Part shown: piece after piece, positions 5,802-13,263 of the stretch | How the letters are laid out: every line of letters begins with the position of its first letter | Numbering within the stretch: the first letter of the stretch is position 1 | Assembly (NCBI GenBank): GCA_947453335.1 | Contig: CANGFP010000002.1 | Coordinates: 1-64,000 of the forward strand | From: Opitutia bacterium | GTDB taxonomy: Bacteria > Verrucomicrobiota > Verrucomicrobiia > Opitutales > UBA953 | Length of the DNA: 64,000 nt | Reading direction: 5' to 3' | Made by a program: the position numbers and the translations under genes | The notes under the pieces: generated by a model | What the model was told of the DNA's origin: nothing | Databases searched by the model: none | What the model saw: the letters and a program-made list of their open reading frames with translations, nothing else

Positions 5802-7277
5802 ATGCCGACGGCGTCCGCCCCTTTCCGTTGCCGCGCCTTCCCGCAACGCTCCGCGGGCGTGCTGCTGCACCCCACCTCCCTGCCCGGTCCCGGTCCGGTC
5901 GGCACGCTGGGCGCCGAGGCCCATCGCTTCATCGAACTGCTCGCGGCCGGCGGCTTCACCTGGTGGCAGGTCTGCCCGCTCGGCCCCACCGGCTACGGTG
6001 ATTCGCCCTACCAGGCGCTGTCGGTCTTCGCCGGCAACCCCTACCTCCTCGACCTCGCGGACCTCGCGCGCCGCGGCTTCCTGACGGCCACCGAAGTCGC
6101 CGGCCTGCGCCGCGGCGCCGACCACGGCACCGACTACGGCCGGCTCTGGCATGAGCTGCGCCCGTTGCTCAAGACCGCAGGCCGCCGTGCGGCCGCCGCC
6201 CTCGCGGCCGACGAAGCGTTCCGCGCGTTCCGCTCCGCCGAAGCCGGCTGGCTCGAGCCGTGGTGCCGCTTCTCGGCCCTGCGCGAACAGCATGCCTACG
6301 CCGCCCCCGCGACGTGGACCGAGACCGTCGCCGACGAGGCGCTCTGCGCCGAGGCCGCCGCGCTGCAGTTCCTCTTCGCCGAACAATGGCGGACCCTGCG
6401 CGCGCACGCGCAACGCCACGGCGTGCGCCTGATGGGCGACGAACCCATCTACGTCTCCGCCGACGGCTGCGACGTGCGGGCGCACCCTGAGCTGTTCCAG
6501 CTGGACGAGCACGGCCGCCCCACCGCCGTCGCCGGCGTCCCGCCCGACTACTTCGCCGAAGATGGGCAGCTCTGGGGCAACCCGCTCTACGCCTGGCCAG
6601 CGCACGCCGCGGACGGCTTCGCCTGGTGGCGCGCGCGCGTCCACCACGACCTGCGCCTTTTCGACGCCGTGCGCATCGACCACTTCCGCGGCATCTGCGA
6701 CTACTGGAGCGTGCCCGCGGGCGCGCCCAACGCGCGCGGCGGCGCCTGGCACGACGGACCCGGCCTCGCCTTCACGCAGGCGCTCGGCGACCTCCCGCTC
6801 GTCGCCGAAGACCTCGGCCTGCTTTCGCCCGGCGTCGACGTCCTGCGCCAGGCCTCCGGCCTGCCCGGCATGGCCGTGCTGCAGTTCGGCTTCGGCGGCT
6901 CGCCGGACAACCCGCACCACCCGGACAACGTCACCGCGGACCGCGTCGTCTACACGGGCACGCACGACAACGACACCTTGCGCGGCTGGCTCGCGCAGGC
7001 GTCGCCGGAGGAGCAGGCGAACCTCAAGGACTTCCTCGGCGACGTGCCGGATGCCGCCGAGGCGCTGCTGGACGCGGCCCTGGCGACGCCCGCCATCTGC
7101 GCGATCCTGCCCGCGCAAGACCTGCTCGGCCTCGGCACGCCCGCGCGCTTCAACACGCCCGGCAACCCGCAGGGCAACTGGACGTGGCGCATGGCCGACG
7201 GCGACCTCGCGCAGCTGGCGCAGACGCTGCCCGCGTGGCGTGCCCGCCTCGCGCGCAGCCGACGCCTCAGCGCGTAA
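5802..7277 (+). CDS. malQ: 4-alpha-glucanotransferase (amylomaltase, GH77)
   Basis: MalQ disproportionates maltodextrins by moving 1,4-alpha-glucan segments in glycogen or maltose metabolism. The 491-residue length fits the short bacterial/plant DPE1 type without the long E. coli N-terminal extension. The opening RSAGVLLHPTSLPGP and WWQVCPLGPTGYGDSPYQ blocks are typical. The three catalytic acids of GH77 are visible: the nucleophile Asp in VRIDHFRG, the acid/base Glu in VAEDLG, and the stabilising Asp in GTHDNDT. The start is one base after the surA-like stop. The 3' end overlaps the convergent ettA gene by 11 bases. No other glycogen gene lies nearby. Confidence 0.97.
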   Translation: MPTASAPFRCRAFPQRSAGVLLHPTSLPGPGPVGTLGAEAHRFIELLAAGGFTWWQVCPLGPTGYGDSPYQALSVFAGNPYLLDLADLARRGFLTATEVAGLRRGADHGTDYGRLWHELRPLLKTAGRRAAAALAADEAFRAFRSAEAGWLEPWCRFSALREQHAYAAPATWTETVADEALCAEAAALQFLFAEQWRTLRAHAQRHGVRLMGDEPIYVSADGCDVRAHPELFQLDEHGRPTAVAGVPPDYFAEDGQLWGNPLYAWPAHAADGFAWWRARVHHDLRLFDAVRIDHFRGICDYWSVPAGAPNARGGAWHDGPGLAFTQALGDLPLVAEDLGLLSPGVDVLRQASGLPGMAVLQFGFGGSPDNPHHPDNVTADRVVYTGTHDNDTLRGWLAQASPEEQANLKDFLGDVPDAAEALLDAALATPAICAILPAQDLLGLGTPARFNTPGNPQGNWTWRMADGDLAQLAQTLPAWRARLARSRRLSA

Positions 7278-8943
7278 GCCGGCGGTACTTCGGACGACGC
7301 GGCGTGTCGGAATCCTCGCCGAGGCGACGGCGGCGCGCCTCCAGGTAGTCGCCGTAGTTGCCTTCGTGCCAGACGATCTTGCCGTCGTCCTCGAAGGCCA
7401 GGATGTGCGTCGCGACGCGGTCGAGGAACCAACGGTCATGCGAGATCACCACCGCGCAACCCGCGAAGGATTCCAGCGCGTCCTCCAAGGCGCGGATCGT
7501 GTTCACGTCGAGGTCGTTCGTCGGCTCGTCGAGCAGGAGCACGTTGGCGCCTGCCTTGATGAGCCGCGCGAGGTGGATCCGGTTGCGCTCGCCGCCGGAC
7601 ATCAGGCCGACCTTGCGCTGCTGCACGTCGCCCGTGAAGCCGAAGCGGGCCGCGTAGGCGCGGGCCGGCACGACGACCTTGCCGAGGTGCACCATCTCCT
7701 GCCCGTCGGAGATCGCCTCCCACAGCGGCTTATCCGCCGGCAGCGAATCGCGCGACTGGTCGACGTGGGCGATCTTCACCGTCTCGCCCAGCGTGAGCGT
7801 GCCCTTGTCGGGCTTCTCCTGCCCGGTGATCATGCGGAAAAGCGTCGTCTTGCCGGCGCCGTTGGGGCCGATGATCCCGACGATGCCGCCGGCCGGCAGG
7901 GAGAAGTCGACGTCCTCCATGAGGACGCGGTCGCCGTAGGCCTTCATCAGGCCGCGGGCTTCGATGACGGCGCCGCCGAGGCGGGGGCCGGGCGGGATCC
8001 AGATCTCGGCCTTGCTCTCGGTCTGGGCCTGGTCCTGCGAAAGCATCTGCTCGTAGGCCCGGAGACGGGCCTTGTTCTTGGCCACGCGGGCCTTGGGCGA
8101 GGAACCCGCCCATTCGCGCTCGCGCTCCATGGAGCGGGTGCGGGCGACGGACTGCTTCTCCTCGGCCTCGAGCCGCTTGCGCTTCTGCTCGAGCCAGGAC
8201 GAGTAGTTGCCCTTCCACGGCACGCCGCGGCCGCGGTCGAGCTCGAGGATCCAGCCCGCCACGTTGTCGAGGAAGTAGCGGTCGTGCGTGATCGCGATGA
8301 CCGTGCCCTTGTAGTTCTGCAGGTGGCGCTCCAGCCAGGCCACCGTATCGGCGTCGAGGTGGTTGGTCGGCTCGTCGAGCAGGAGGATGTCCGGCTCCAT
8401 CAGGAGCAGGCGGCACAGCGCCACGCGGCGCTTCTCGCCGCCGGAGAGCTTGGCGACGGGGGCGTCTGCCGGCGGGCAACGCAAGGCCTCGAGCGCCATC
8501 TCGATGCGCGCGTCAAGGTCCCAACCGCCGCGGGCGTCGAGGATGGACTGGATCTCCCCTTGGCGGGCGAGAATCTTCTCCTGCTCCTTCGGGTCGTCGG
8601 TCTCGGAGACCTTCACGAAAGTGTCGTCGTATTCCTCGAGCAGGCCCTTCATCTCGGCCACCGCCTCCTTGACGCATTCCCCGACCGTCTTGGACTCGTC
8701 GAGACGCGGCTCCTGGGCGAGGTACCCCAAGGTGTAGCCCGGCACGGCGCTGATCTCGCCGTCGAACTCCTTGTCCTCGCCGGCCATGATCTTGAGCAAC
8801 GTGGACTTCCCGGAGCCGTTGAGGCCGAGCACGCCGATCTTGGCGCCGAAGAAATAGGACAGCGAGATGTCGCGGAAGACCGGCTTCTTCTCGAAGTGCT
8901 TGGTCACCCCGGTCATCGTGAAAATCACCTTTTCGTCGGCCAT
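7267..8943 (-). CDS. ettA: ABC-F protein EttA, energy-dependent translational throttle
   Basis: EttA is a soluble ABC-F ATPase that binds the ribosomal E site and gates the first peptide bond according to ATP/ADP ratio. The start at 8943 (MADEKVIFTM) gives 558 residues, close to the 555 of E. coli EttA; the frame upstream is not protein-like. It has two ABC domains. The first has GLNGSGKST, LSGGEKRRVALC and LLLDEPTNHLDA, and an arm insertion around residue 95-140. The second has GPNGAGKTT, MSGGERNRIHLAR and LLLDEPTNDLD. The linker between the domains (P-site tRNA interaction motif) includes the Arg-rich SMERERE / ARVAKNKARL region. No transmembrane segment is present. It diverges from nusA. 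Confidence 0.95.
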   Translation of the reverse strand: MADEKVIFTMTGVTKHFEKKPVFRDISLSYFFGAKIGVLGLNGSGKSTLLKIMAGEDKEFDGEISAVPGYTLGYLAQEPRLDESKTVGECVKEAVAEMKGLLEEYDDTFVKVSETDDPKEQEKILARQGEIQSILDARGGWDLDARIEMALEALRCPPADAPVAKLSGGEKRRVALCRLLLMEPDILLLDEPTNHLDADTVAWLERHLQNYKGTVIAITHDRYFLDNVAGWILELDRGRGVPWKGNYSSWLEQKRKRLEAEEKQSVARTRSMEREREWAGSSPKARVAKNKARLRAYEQMLSQDQAQTESKAEIWIPPGPRLGGAVIEARGLMKAYGDRVLMEDVDFSLPAGGIVGIIGPNGAGKTTLFRMITGQEKPDKGTLTLGETVKIAHVDQSRDSLPADKPLWEAISDGQEMVHLGKVVVPARAYAARFGFTGDVQQRKVGLMSGGERNRIHLARLIKAGANVLLLDEPTNDLDVNTIRALEDALESFAGCAVVISHDRWFLDRVATHILAFEDDGKIVWHEGNYGDYLEARRRRLGEDSDTPRRPKYRRLTR

Positions 8944-9013
8944 GGAGGGGGAGGTTTGCGGAAGAACCCCCGGGGGCAAGCGGAACCGCCCCTTGGGCGG
9001 GGGCCGTCCCTCC

Positions 9014-9042
9014 TTGACAGGCCCCGCCGAGCAGGCCATATC
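9014..9042 (+). promoter_or_regulatory. Candidate nusA operon promoter
   Basis: A perfect TTGACA (9014-9019) is separated by 17 bases from CATATC (9037-9042). Transcription would begin near 9049, just upstream of the competing hairpins at 9055-9095 and about 80 bases before nusA. The -10 matches the TATAAT consensus at only three positions, but CAT-starting -10 candidates recur at other genes in this window. Confidence 0.5.
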
Positions 9043-9054
9043 CAGAGGCCTAGT

Positions 9055-9095
9055 CACCTTTCCTTAAGGTGGGTCCAGCCGGACCCGCCTTTTTT
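9055..9095 (+). terminator. Candidate transcription attenuator in the nusA leader
   Basis: A 9-bp stem (9068-9076 with 9081-9089, one G-T pair, loop AGCC) is followed directly by six T residues (9090-9095), which is the form of an intrinsic terminator. It lies between the candidate nusA promoter and the nusA start codon. No plus-strand gene upstream needs terminating. A second hairpin, CACCTT (9055-9060) with AAGGTG (9066-9071), uses the first bases of the terminator's left arm, so the two structures exclude each other. Since NusA stimulates intrinsic termination, autoregulation of nusA-infB is plausible but inferred. Confidence 0.6.
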
Positions 9096-9130
9096 GTCGC
9101 CCATTTTCTCACCATACCACCCGCATACCC

Positions 9131-10387
9131 ATGAGCGTAGACATCAAGCCCTACCTGCAATACCTCGAAAAGGAAAAGAACATCCCTAAGGACGAGGCCT
9201 GCGCGCTGATCGCCGAAGCCATCAAGTCCTCCGTCGAGAAGTCCGTCCTCGCCGGCCAGAACATCGAGGTCATCGCCGACCCCGCCACCGGCAAGCTCGA
9301 CGCCTTCGCCGTCTACGTCGTCAGCGACTCCCCGTCCGACGCCCTGAAGGAGATCAACCCCGTCGCCGCCACCGCCCTCAAGGCCGACGCCAAGATCGGC
9401 GACGAAGTGCGCCGCCCCATCGCCGTCTCCGACCTCGGCCGCATCGCGGCCATGAGCACCAAGCAGCTCCTCAACCAGCGCTTCCGCAAGATCGAGAAGG
9501 ACCAGGTCTTCAAGGAGTACAAGGACAAGGTCGGCGACATCGTCACCGGCACCGTCCGCCGCAACGACCGCGGCAACGTCGTCGTCGAGCTCGGCTCCGC
9601 CGAGGCCGTCCTCACCCGCGCCGAGAGCTGCCAGGGCGAGATCTTCCGCACCGGCGACCGCATCCGCTGCCTCCTCCTCGAGATCCGCGAGGACACCCAG
9701 CGCGGCCGCGAGTTCGTCCTGTCCCGCGCCCACCCGAACTTCGTCCGCCGCCTGCTCGAGCTCGAGGTCGCCGAGATCGCCGACAAGACCGTCAAGATCG
9801 CCGCCATGGCGCGCGACCCGGGCTACCGCACCAAGATCGCCGTCGACTCGGCCGACCCCAAGGTCGACCCGGTCGGCGCCTGCGTCGGCGCCCGCGGCGC
9901 CCGCGTCCGCAACATCGTCAAGGAGCTCAACGGCGAGAAGATCGACATCATCCGCTGGCGCCCCGAGCCCCTGCAGCTGCTCGAGGAGGCCATCCGCCCG
10001 GCCAAGCCCCGCAACGTGCACGTCGACGAGCGCAACCGCCTCATCCACTTCGAGGTGGACGAGGACGACATGCGCATCGCCATCGGCTCCAAGGGCCGCA
10101 ACGCCCGCCTCACCTCCAAGCTCATGGGCTGGCGCCTCGACATCACGAAGTCGACGCGCGCGCCGGAGAGCGTGGACGCCCAGCTCGGCGAGAAGGCCCT
10201 GCGCCTCGCCGCCCAGCTCCAGCTCCCGCCCGAGCTCATCGCCAAGTTCGTCGGCCTCGGCATCGCCGAGCTCGCGGCCTTCAGCGACGTGACCGCGGAC
10301 GACCTCGCCGGCACCGCCATCACCGAAGAGGAGTTCAACACCGTCCTCGCCGCCGTCGCCAAGGCCAAGACCTCCGGCCAGGCCTAA
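9131..10387 (+). CDS. nusA: Transcription termination/antitermination factor NusA
   Basis: NusA binds RNA polymerase and nascent RNA and modulates pausing, termination and antitermination. The 418-residue protein has the N-terminal polymerase-binding domain (1-125), an S1 domain beginning VGDIVTGTV (about 135-200), and two KH domains. The KH GxxG-type loops read VGARGARVRNI and AIGSKGRNARL. A helix-hairpin-helix-like tail follows (about 365-410). It lacks the two long acidic repeats of E. coli NusA. No rimP lies upstream, although rimP usually precedes nusA. It heads nusA-infB-rbfA. The leader contains no Shine-Dalgarno sequence. Confidence 0.97.
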   Translation: MSVDIKPYLQYLEKEKNIPKDEACALIAEAIKSSVEKSVLAGQNIEVIADPATGKLDAFAVYVVSDSPSDALKEINPVAATALKADAKIGDEVRRPIAVSDLGRIAAMSTKQLLNQRFRKIEKDQVFKEYKDKVGDIVTGTVRRNDRGNVVVELGSAEAVLTRAESCQGEIFRTGDRIRCLLLEIREDTQRGREFVLSRAHPNFVRRLLELEVAEIADKTVKIAAMARDPGYRTKIAVDSADPKVDPVGACVGARGARVRNIVKELNGEKIDIIRWRPEPLQLLEEAIRPAKPRNVHVDERNRLIHFEVDEDDMRIAIGSKGRNARLTSKLMGWRLDITKSTRAPESVDAQLGEKALRLAAQLQLPPELIAKFVGLGIAELAAFSDVTADDLAGTAITEEEFNTVLAAVAKAKTSGQA

Positions 10388-10437
10388 GTCCGTCCGTCCC
10401 GACCACCCTCCCGCTACCGTCCACCCAGCACCTGCTC

Positions 10438-12888
10438 ATGACCGAGAAGAAGAAGAAACCCGAAGCGAAGAAAGCCTCCACCACGCAGCGGTACAGCGAC
10501 GTGGCGAAGGAGCTCGGCATCGAGGTCAAGGCGTTGATCGCCTTGGCGGACCAGTTCGTGGAGGCCCGCCCGGACTACAAGGACTACGTCTACACCGACG
10601 GCAAGAAGCCCGCGGCCTCGAGCAACTTCGGCAAGATCTACCGCGAGGACTTCCTGAAGTTCGCCGCCGACAAGCTCCCGAAGAAGGAGGAGCCCGCCCC
10701 GGCGCCGACCCCGGCCGCCGCACCCGCCCCGGCCAAGCCGGCCGTCGAGTCCGCCAAGCCCGCCGCGCCGGTCGCGCCGGTCGCGACCCCGGTGGCTCCG
10801 GCCGCCAAGCCCAACACGCCGCCGACGGTCGTCCCGCCGCGCCCCGCGCCGATCGCCCCGCCCCGGCCCACCGCCGGCCCGGCTCCCGTCGTGCCGCCGC
10901 GTCCGGTGGCCCCGGCGCCCGCGCCCCGCAACGAGCTTCCGCCGATCGTCATCACGCCTTCGCAGCCGCCGGCCGCGCCGAGCCGCCCCAACCCGCTGCC
11001 TCCGATCGTCCGCCCGCCCGCCGCCCCCGTCGTCACCCGCAACGTCAGCGGCGCCGGCCAGGTCGCCCCGGGCAGCAAGGGCACCGTGACCGTCCGCCCG
11101 CCCATCGTGGTGCGCGACTTCGCGATCGCCCTCAACCTCAAGCCCTTCCAGGTCATCGGTAGCCTGATGGAGCTCAACAAGGTCGTCAGCATCACCTCCG
11201 TCATCGAGGAAGCCGACGCGCGCAAGGTCGCCGAGAAGCATGGCTACGTCCTCGAGATCCGCCACCGCGGCGAAGGCGCCCAGCCCGTCAAGAAGGTCGA
11301 GAAGAACACCGACGACGATCCCGCGCTGCTGGCGCAGCGTCCGCCGGTCGTCTGCGTCCTCGGCCACGTCGACCACGGCAAGACCACCCTCCTCGACTAC
11401 TTCCGCAAGACCAACGTGGTGTCCGGCGAAGCCGGCGGCATCACGCAGCACATCGGGGCCTATTCCGTGAAGTACCAGGGCGACAAGCCCGAGTACAAGG
11501 GCCGCACCGTCACCTTCCTCGACACCCCGGGCCACGCGGCCTTCGCGAAGATGCGCGAGCGCGGCGCCTCCGTGACCGACATCGCCGTGCTGGTGGTGGC
11601 GGCCGACGACGGCTTCATGCCGCAGACCGAGGAGGCCCTCAAGTTCGCCCAGAAGCACGCCAGCGCCATCGTCTGCGCCGTGAACAAGGTCGACGCCAAG
11701 GGCGCCAACGTGGACCGCGTGAAGCAGCAGATGCAGCAGCGCGGCATCACCCCCGAGGACTGGGGTGGCGAGACCATCACCAACCCCGTCTCCGCCCTCA
11801 AGGGCACGGGCATGAACGAGCTCCTCGAGTCGATCCTCATCCAGGCGGAGATCCTCGACCTCAAGGCCAACCCGAAGTGCGCCGCCCAAGGCGTCGTCAT
11901 CGAATCCCAGATGGAGACCGGCCGCGGCCCCACCGCCACGGTCATCGTCCAGAAGGGCACGCTCAAGCCGGGCGACTCGTTCGTCTGCGGCGAGACGTGG
12001 TGCAAGGTCCGCGCCCTCATGGATGAGCGCGGCGGCCGCCTCCAGAATTCCGCGCCGGGCACCCCTGCCCTCGTCCTCGGCTGGGACGCCGTCCCGGCCC
12101 CGGGCACGAAGTTCCAGACGGTGAAGAACGACCGCGAAGCCCGCGAGCAGGCCGAAGAGGCCGCGCTCGCCGCCCGCAAGGCCGCGGAAGCCCAGCAGCA
12201 GGCGCCCAGCACCGGCGCCCGCCCGGGCATGACGGACCTCGAGCGCCTCATGGCCGCCCTGGCCCAGGACAAGGAGAAGATCCTCCGCGTGCTGCTCAAG
12301 GCCGACGTCAACGGCACGCTCGAAGCGCTCGAGGGCTGCCTCCGCGAAATCAAGTCCAGCAAGGTCCGCCTCGAGATCGTCGGCGGCTCCGTGGGCCCGA
12401 TCACGCAGAGCGACGTCCAGCTCGCCGAGGCGGCGAAGTCGATCATCGTCGGCTTCGACACCAAGGTCGAGAACGGCGTCCAGTCCCACCTCAAGCGCAC
12501 GGGCGTCCGCATCGTGACGCACGACATCATCTACGAGCTCATCACGCTGGTGAAGGAGGCGATGGCCGAGCTCCTCGACCCCGAGGTCCGCGAGAACAAG
12601 CTCGGCGCCGCCGAGGTCCGCGCGGTCTTCCCGCTGGGCAAGGAGCACAAGGTGGCCGGTTGCATGGTCACCGAAGGCCTCGTCCGCCGCGCCGCCAAGG
12701 CGCGCCTCGTCCGCAAGGGCCAGGTCATCCACCAAGGCCCCGTCGAGACCCTGCGCCGCTTCAAGGACGACGCTTCGGAGGTCAAGGCGGGCTTCGAGTG
12801 CGGCATCAAGCTGGGCGGCTACGACGAGTACCTCCCGGGCGACCTCATCGAGGTCGTCGAGATGCTGCAGGTCCGCCCCAGCCTCTAA
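10438..12888 (+). CDS. infB: Translation initiation factor IF-2
   Basis: IF-2 is the GTPase that brings fMet-tRNA to the 30S subunit and promotes subunit joining. The 816-residue protein opens with a Lys-rich helical IF2_N region (about 1-80). A roughly 120-residue Ala/Pro-rich linker of low complexity follows, probably disordered. A second small N-terminal fold (around RPPIVVRDFAIALNLK) precedes the G domain near residue 300. That domain has G1 GHVDHGKTT, G3 DTPGHAAF and G4 NKVD, and the switch I segment GGITQHIGAY. Domains II, III and IV complete the protein, ending in the initiator-tRNA-binding domain with GYDEYLPGDLIEV. It lies 50 bases after nusA and 3 bases before rbfA. Confidence 0.98.
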   Translation: MTEKKKKPEAKKASTTQRYSDVAKELGIEVKALIALADQFVEARPDYKDYVYTDGKKPAASSNFGKIYREDFLKFAADKLPKKEEPAPAPTPAAAPAPAKPAVESAKPAAPVAPVATPVAPAAKPNTPPTVVPPRPAPIAPPRPTAGPAPVVPPRPVAPAPAPRNELPPIVITPSQPPAAPSRPNPLPPIVRPPAAPVVTRNVSGAGQVAPGSKGTVTVRPPIVVRDFAIALNLKPFQVIGSLMELNKVVSITSVIEEADARKVAEKHGYVLEIRHRGEGAQPVKKVEKNTDDDPALLAQRPPVVCVLGHVDHGKTTLLDYFRKTNVVSGEAGGITQHIGAYSVKYQGDKPEYKGRTVTFLDTPGHAAFAKMRERGASVTDIAVLVVAADDGFMPQTEEALKFAQKHASAIVCAVNKVDAKGANVDRVKQQMQQRGITPEDWGGETITNPVSALKGTGMNELLESILIQAEILDLKANPKCAAQGVVIESQMETGRGPTATVIVQKGTLKPGDSFVCGETWCKVRALMDERGGRLQNSAPGTPALVLGWDAVPAPGTKFQTVKNDREAREQAEEAALAARKAAEAQQQAPSTGARPGMTDLERLMAALAQDKEKILRVLLKADVNGTLEALEGCLREIKSSKVRLEIVGGSVGPITQSDVQLAEAAKSIIVGFDTKVENGVQSHLKRTGVRIVTHDIIYELITLVKEAMAELLDPEVRENKLGAAEVRAVFPLGKEHKVAGCMVTEGLVRRAAKARLVRKGQVIHQGPVETLRRFKDDASEVKAGFECGIKLGGYDEYLPGDLIEVVEMLQVRPSL

Positions 12889-12891
12889 GCC

Positions 12892-13263
12892 ATGTCGCAG
12901 CGCCAGCTCCGGGTCGCCGAACTGATCCAACGCGAGGTCTCCGTCGCGCTCCGGCGCAACTGGATCACGGAGTCGGCGCTGATCACGATCACGCGGGCGA
13001 CCGTCTCCCCCGACCTCCGCCAGGTGCGCGTCGGCTACGCGGTCTCCGGCGGCGACGCCGAGAAGAAGGCCGCGCGCGCGTTCCTGAAGCGCATCCGCCG
13101 CGAGCTCCGCGCGACCGTCAGCGGCATCCTGCAGATGAAGAGCGCGCCCGACCTGCTCTTCGCCGAGGACGACGTGACCGGCGGCGTGGCCCGCGTGCAG
13201 GCCCTGCTCGACGAGATGTCGCGCAAGGACAAGCCGGCCGGCCCCGCGCCGTCCGCGGAGTGA
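12892..13263 (+). CDS. rbfA: 30S ribosome-binding factor RbfA
   Basis: RbfA is a small KH-fold protein that assists late 16S rRNA maturation in the 30S subunit. The 123 residues fit the family. Conserved features are the opening RQLRVAELIQREV helix, the TITRATVSPDLRQVRVGY strand, and the C-terminal LRATVSGILQMKSAPDLLF block. The last 15 residues are charged and probably disordered. It follows infB by 3 bases, so the nusA-infB-rbfA order is conserved. The usual downstream truB and ribF are found 10 kb away instead. It is convergent with mcsB. Confidence 0.96.
   Translation: MSQRQLRVAELIQREVSVALRRNWITESALITITRATVSPDLRQVRVGYAVSGGDAEKKAARAFLKRIRRELRATVSGILQMKSAPDLLFAEDDVTGGVARVQALLDEMSRKDKPAGPAPSAE

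Follow-up and report, generated by a model that had tools for sequence, protein, structure and literature searches.

The window analysed here, a stretch of 64,000 nucleotides, derives from the metagenome-assembled genome (63% complete) of a freshwater member of the Opitutales (Verrucomicrobiota). It carries nusA, whose product is a protein that helps RNA polymerase to stop, as the first gene of a nusA-infB-rbfA cluster. The neighbouring gene, ettA, is separated from nusA by a spacer of 187 bases and lies outside the device considered here. The relevant features are:

7267-8943, minus strand: ettA, the divergent neighbour (TIGR03719, 883.6 bits)
9014-9019, plus strand: TTGACA, -35 element of the nusA promoter
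9037-9042, plus strand: CATATC, probable, weak -10 element
9050-9095, plus strand: predicted terminated leader RNA, ~44-46 nt
9055-9060, plus strand: CACCTT, 5' arm of the competing hairpin
9066-9071, plus strand: AAGGTG, segment shared by the competing hairpin (as its 3' arm) and the terminator (as the base of its 5' arm)
9066-9091, plus strand: intrinsic terminator stem-loop, 11 bp
9090-9095, plus strand: T6 tract of the terminator
9131-10387, plus strand: nusA (NCBIfam TIGR01953, 336.7 bits)
10438-12888, plus strand: infB (TIGR00487, 654.7 bits)
12892-13263, plus strand: rbfA (NF001802, E 1.7e-16, under the curated cut-off)

Two further observations concern the flanking genes. The element GCAAGCGGAACC (8976-8988), which precedes the start of ettA on the other strand by ~35 nt, is shared across the genus in conserved form and has no other close copy within the window. 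In one genus member nusA is split into pieces with several stop codons (G021:C2:258427-259574), the result of either an assembly fault or pseudogene formation.

The -35 hexamer is 98% identical in genus relatives, and TTGAC also stands upstream of the stem in ~20 families. CATATC, 17 nt past TTGACA, is the best -10 candidate at that spacing; relatives display TAAATC, AAGGTA and other sequences at this position. A consensus promoter scan found no site at the nusA leader because the -10 element is poor. Judged from the promoter position, transcription would start at ~9050-9052, while the end of the predicted leader RNA is set by the T run. A literature search for transcription-start or Term-seq studies of Verrucomicrobia found no such paper in the library searched. 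A leader peptide was considered and rejected, as the frame of the sole GTG candidate varies between relatives and there is no conserved short open frame. An extended 5' pairing, GGCC...GGTC, was set aside, as it probably falls at the transcription start or before it.

The terminator comprises a 5' arm, AAGGTGGGTCC (9066-9076), the loop AGCC (9077-9080) and a 3' arm, GGACCCGCCTT (9081-9091), and the end of its T6 tract (9095) is 35 bases from the nusA start. Its location between a TTGACA promoter and nusA, proposed in an earlier sequence-only reading, can be read directly from the coordinates, and the layout is conserved in ~20 families. The T6 tract in that proposal is likewise read directly and is conserved in genus relatives, but the stem is 11 bp, when two of the six T residues are counted in, rather than 9 bp. 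The same reading was correct that no upstream gene on the plus strand requires termination, as ettA is a divergent, minus-strand gene. The fold of 9050-9097 has an energy of -20.6 kcal/mol (z -4.2), which was equalled by none of 200 shuffles, and the stem is the best terminator-like site in the region from 5 to 16 kb; on the minus strand the terminator is without a T run. Leaders of ~50 relatives were compared, of which 45 distinct sequences were used to calculate mean pairwise identity. The highest values were those of ACCTT (1.00), the two terminator arms (0.99 and 0.98) and the -35 hexamer (0.98); the competitor loop reached 0.81, the terminator loop 0.69, the 21 bases past the terminator 0.62 and the 17-nt promoter spacer 0.40. 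By this measure the promoter spacer is saturated in substitutions, in contrast to the strongly conserved leader elements, and the conservation of CACCTT is of a degree that a plain terminator would not need. In total 98.8% of terminator pair cells are kept, one pair having changed on both sides, from T-A to C-G, and a U.G wobble (9070/9087) is retained in 22 of 23 sequences.

A search of 139 genomes drawn from the order located NusA in 132; upstream DNA was fetched for 111 of these, in addition to 17 from the first search. A terminator preceded by TTGAC was present in 151 of the 175 leaders, and ~20 Opitutales families share the layout, the -35 box preceding the stem by 43-75 nt (mostly 48-62). 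The layout was not found in families f13, f25, f26 and f28 or in most of f24. The genomes from f25, f26 and f28 (L194, L220, L227, L234-L245), which are without the nusA leader terminator, are ~0.8-1.1 Mb in size. A strict pattern, GTGGGN3-14CCCGCTTTTTT, gave 24 matches in 54 whole genomes, 23 of which lie directly before nusA. This near-exclusivity shows that the motif is a nusA leader element and not an intergenic accident. These data bear on the view that the stem is an ordinary terminator insulating nusA from upstream or antisense transcription, as terminators in divergent spacers do exist. We consider this highly improbable, since the stem sits downstream of the nusA promoter at a near-fixed distance in ~20 families whose upstream genes vary in kind and orientation; indeed, ettA precedes nusA only in the window's genus.

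The 5' arm of the competing hairpin, CACCTT, is invariant in the 23 distinct leaders of family f1, and its six pairs with AAGGTG hold in 22 or 23 of these sequences. Such near-invariance provides little evidence in itself, and support for the pairing comes from comparisons between families. In a cognate/non-cognate test the 5' segment of each family was paired with its own terminator 5' arm and with the arms of other families. The mean fit to the own arm was -5.33 kcal/mol, compared with -3.82 kcal/mol for other-family arms, giving a permutation p of 0.0005, or 0.001 after correction for composition (medians over repeated draws, each taking one leader per family at random). Whole helices have been swapped: CACCTT/AAGGTG and GCTTTC/GAAAGC occur within f1, CTCTTA/TAAGAG in f5, CTTTCT/GGAAAG in f4, CACTTT/AAAGTG in f22, CATTATCC/GGATAGTG in f20 and TATCCA/TGGATA in f19. 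In f3, f11 and f17 the competing hairpin is supported little or not at all. As a per-family shuffle test of the 5' segment was weak (Fisher p 0.08 on family medians), the claim of covariation rests on the between-family permutation test, by which the competing hairpin covaries with the terminator arm across families. The covariation that the sequence-only reading had proposed as a check is seen between families for the competitor (p ~0.001); one outcome that would have told against that reading, conservation of neither stem in relatives, did not occur, as both pairings are conserved.

A different role for the 5' hairpin, as a pause hairpin or a stabilizer of the nusA mRNA 5' end with no function in termination, would be consistent with its location at the very start of the predicted RNA, and NusA enhances hairpin pauses. 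This proposal appears very unlikely, as in most genera 3 nt or more of the competitor 3' arm lie within the terminator arm (an overlap of at least 1 nt was a condition of the search), and the hairpin covaries with that arm, neither of which a free-standing hairpin would need.

The order of folding was read from minimum-energy folds of RNA of increasing length. The first fold is the 5' hairpin (-7.6 kcal/mol), which is followed by a structure in which the upper 5-6 pairs of the terminator form beside it (-15.9 kcal/mol). When the last stem bases are added the full terminator (-20.6 kcal/mol) displaces the 5' hairpin. The competitor covers the lower six positions of the terminator 5' arm, so the 5-6 upper pairs can coexist with it. 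The leader thus contains two conserved structures that share one segment, their mutual exclusivity being confined to the lower stem. The sequence-only reading was therefore right that the CACCTT/AAGGTG pairing opposes the terminator, and the pairing is conserved, but a full block of the stem is not observed. The full terminator is favoured by ~5 kcal/mol over the competitor with a partial upper stem (-20.6 against -15.4 kcal/mol). At equilibrium the terminator therefore prevails, and any effect of the competitor must come from timing, which suggests that the hairpin by itself is a kinetic competitor for the lower stem and not a stable antiterminator. It could be argued that another ligand, protein or RNA, stabilizes the 5' hairpin and converts it into a true antiterminator; a stabilizer would make sense for a hairpin too weak to win alone, and CACCTT is 100% conserved in the genus. 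The arm sequences, however, are wholly different between families while the pairing is kept, which argues against sequence-specific binding, and the loops vary, making such a ligand improbable.

The terminator extends beyond the Opitutales. Among 21 other superphylum sequences with DNA upstream of nusA, 20 contain a leader GTGGG...CCC(A/G)C and T run, in most cases with a similar distance from TTGAC to the stem. A G.U pair in the stem, which in Opitutales sits near the terminator loop, is present in 5 of these 20 leaders compared with 50 of 53 Opitutales genera, and the competing hairpin was not found in the other classes of the superphylum (mean z -0.08), in counts uncorrected for shared ancestry. 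The simplest reading of these sequences is that of an old terminator to which the Opitutales would have added the wobble and the competitor.

A rimP/nusA leader is known from other phyla. The rimP-leader described by Naville and Gautheret (2010) is a GGG...CCC stem for which NusA or RimP was proposed as the effector; they saw no visible antiterminator in its general form, and a tandem terminator/antiterminator arrangement in some Gammaproteobacteria only (PMC2965389). The leader described here resembles it (PMC2965389; Rfam RF01770) in placing a terminator in the short 5' UTR of a nusA and infB operon, and in having a G-rich 5' arm, a C-rich 3' arm and a T run, here GGG...CCC and T6. The place of the c/g pair in the rimP-leader motif GGGc(...)gCCC is taken by T/A in the window and by C/G in many relatives. 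The two differ in that rimP, the first gene of the operon there, was not found here, and in the presence here of a conserved competing hairpin. A search for RimP_N that succeeded in 10 of 14 controls detected it in none of 54 Opitutales genomes and in none of 115 genomes from the phylum Verrucomicrobiota. In the window nusA, infB and rbfA are nonetheless present (9131-13263). That the leader stays on nusA where rimP is not found removes RimP as the regulator here. An Rfam search gave no match to the leader beyond chance level, and with the RF01770 covariance model (cut-off 47 bits) the genome search gave background hits, with no match over the cut-off in any of 57 genomes and in only 1 of 14 controls. 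By analogy the leader would work like a nusA/rimP leader, while it is not filed under RF01770.

Feedback by NusA on its own operon's leader has long been proposed for Escherichia coli and Streptococcus agalactiae (PMC2965389, PMC4448216). Bacillus subtilis NusA is reported to repress itself through intrinsic termination in its operon's leader (PMC12288461); the nusA leader here would act likewise, the effect of NusA having been tested in B. subtilis. The B. subtilis leader differs in its length (~180 nt; PMC2965389), compared with ~46 nt here, and in having rimP (ylxS) as its first gene. The S. agalactiae rimP-nusA-infB operon is similarly compact, with termination 31 nt after the start site and NusA feedback suggested, but has rimP first and, in the part of PMC4448216 consulted, no reported competing hairpin. 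Such feedback, reported on the nusA operon in other phyla (PMC12288461), argues against a constitutive brake, in which nusA transcription is lowered by a fixed factor, no factor is sensed and the 5' hairpin merely tunes read-through. The strong f1 hairpin and T6 would require no helper, and response to a factor is something that we infer. A brake of this kind is nevertheless unlikely, as GTGGG..CCC is conserved across phyla beyond the needs of a plain terminator and the motif is near-exclusive to nusA.

The data are best explained by a promoter-proximal attenuator in the ~46-nt leader of nusA-infB-rbfA, with probable NusA feedback and a competing hairpin that would set the threshold (probability about 0.62). 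The attenuator is supported by the conserved leader against a saturated spacer, the layout in ~20 families with differing upstream genes, a motif nearly confined to nusA leaders, own-arm fit, paired replacement of arms and the order of folding; the feedback component draws on leader attenuation in B. subtilis (PMC12288461) and the 31-nt termination in S. agalactiae (PMC4448216). Of the autoregulatory attenuator put forward in the sequence-only reading, the compact attenuator is thus strongly supported by the conserved promoter, terminator and near-fixed spacing and by the motif that is nearly exclusive to nusA, while NusA as the effector is probable by analogy. In the proposed mechanism polymerase would start at ~9050 and the earliest RNA would fold as the CACCTT/AAGGTG hairpin, next to which the upper terminator stem would form. 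As the final stem bases and U tract emerge, the terminator would, on the evidence of minimum-energy folds, oust the 5' hairpin and complete the lower stem. Completion would lead to a stop near 9095, the likely site of termination in the cell, and its failure to synthesis of nusA-infB-rbfA. By stabilizing pauses and aiding suboptimal hairpins, as in B. subtilis, NusA would increase termination and thereby reduce its own level, the competing hairpin and the conserved stem U.G presumably setting the threshold.

Further points weigh against components of this attenuator model. In B. subtilis the help of NusA is described for hairpins or U tracts that are suboptimal (PMC8060035), but the window has a strong terminator (-20 kcal/mol, T6). 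A hairpin of 6 bp, moreover, may be ousted too quickly to have an effect. More tentatively, and possible rather than probable, the Opitutales leader may be a kinetic NusA sensor built on the older superphylum-wide terminator, in which the 5' hairpin holds the base, the wobble weakens the stem and pausing prolonged by NusA determines if the lower stem can invade before polymerase escapes. On the best reading the system is of a known kind, NusA autoregulation by attenuation, in a competing-hairpin version that looks new. With it the range of the nusA leader attenuator comes to include a phylum where rimP was not found, a natural deletion indicating that RimP is dispensable for persistence of the leader. 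The leader is also a minimal system, ~46 nt long, whose natural variants contain or lack the competitor, in which to test the effects of NusA and hairpin completion on termination efficiency. Finally, in many relatives (L070 and similar) the leader stem can be read without a stop codon in the frame of nusA, and automatic annotation may thus place a GTG start inside the terminator.
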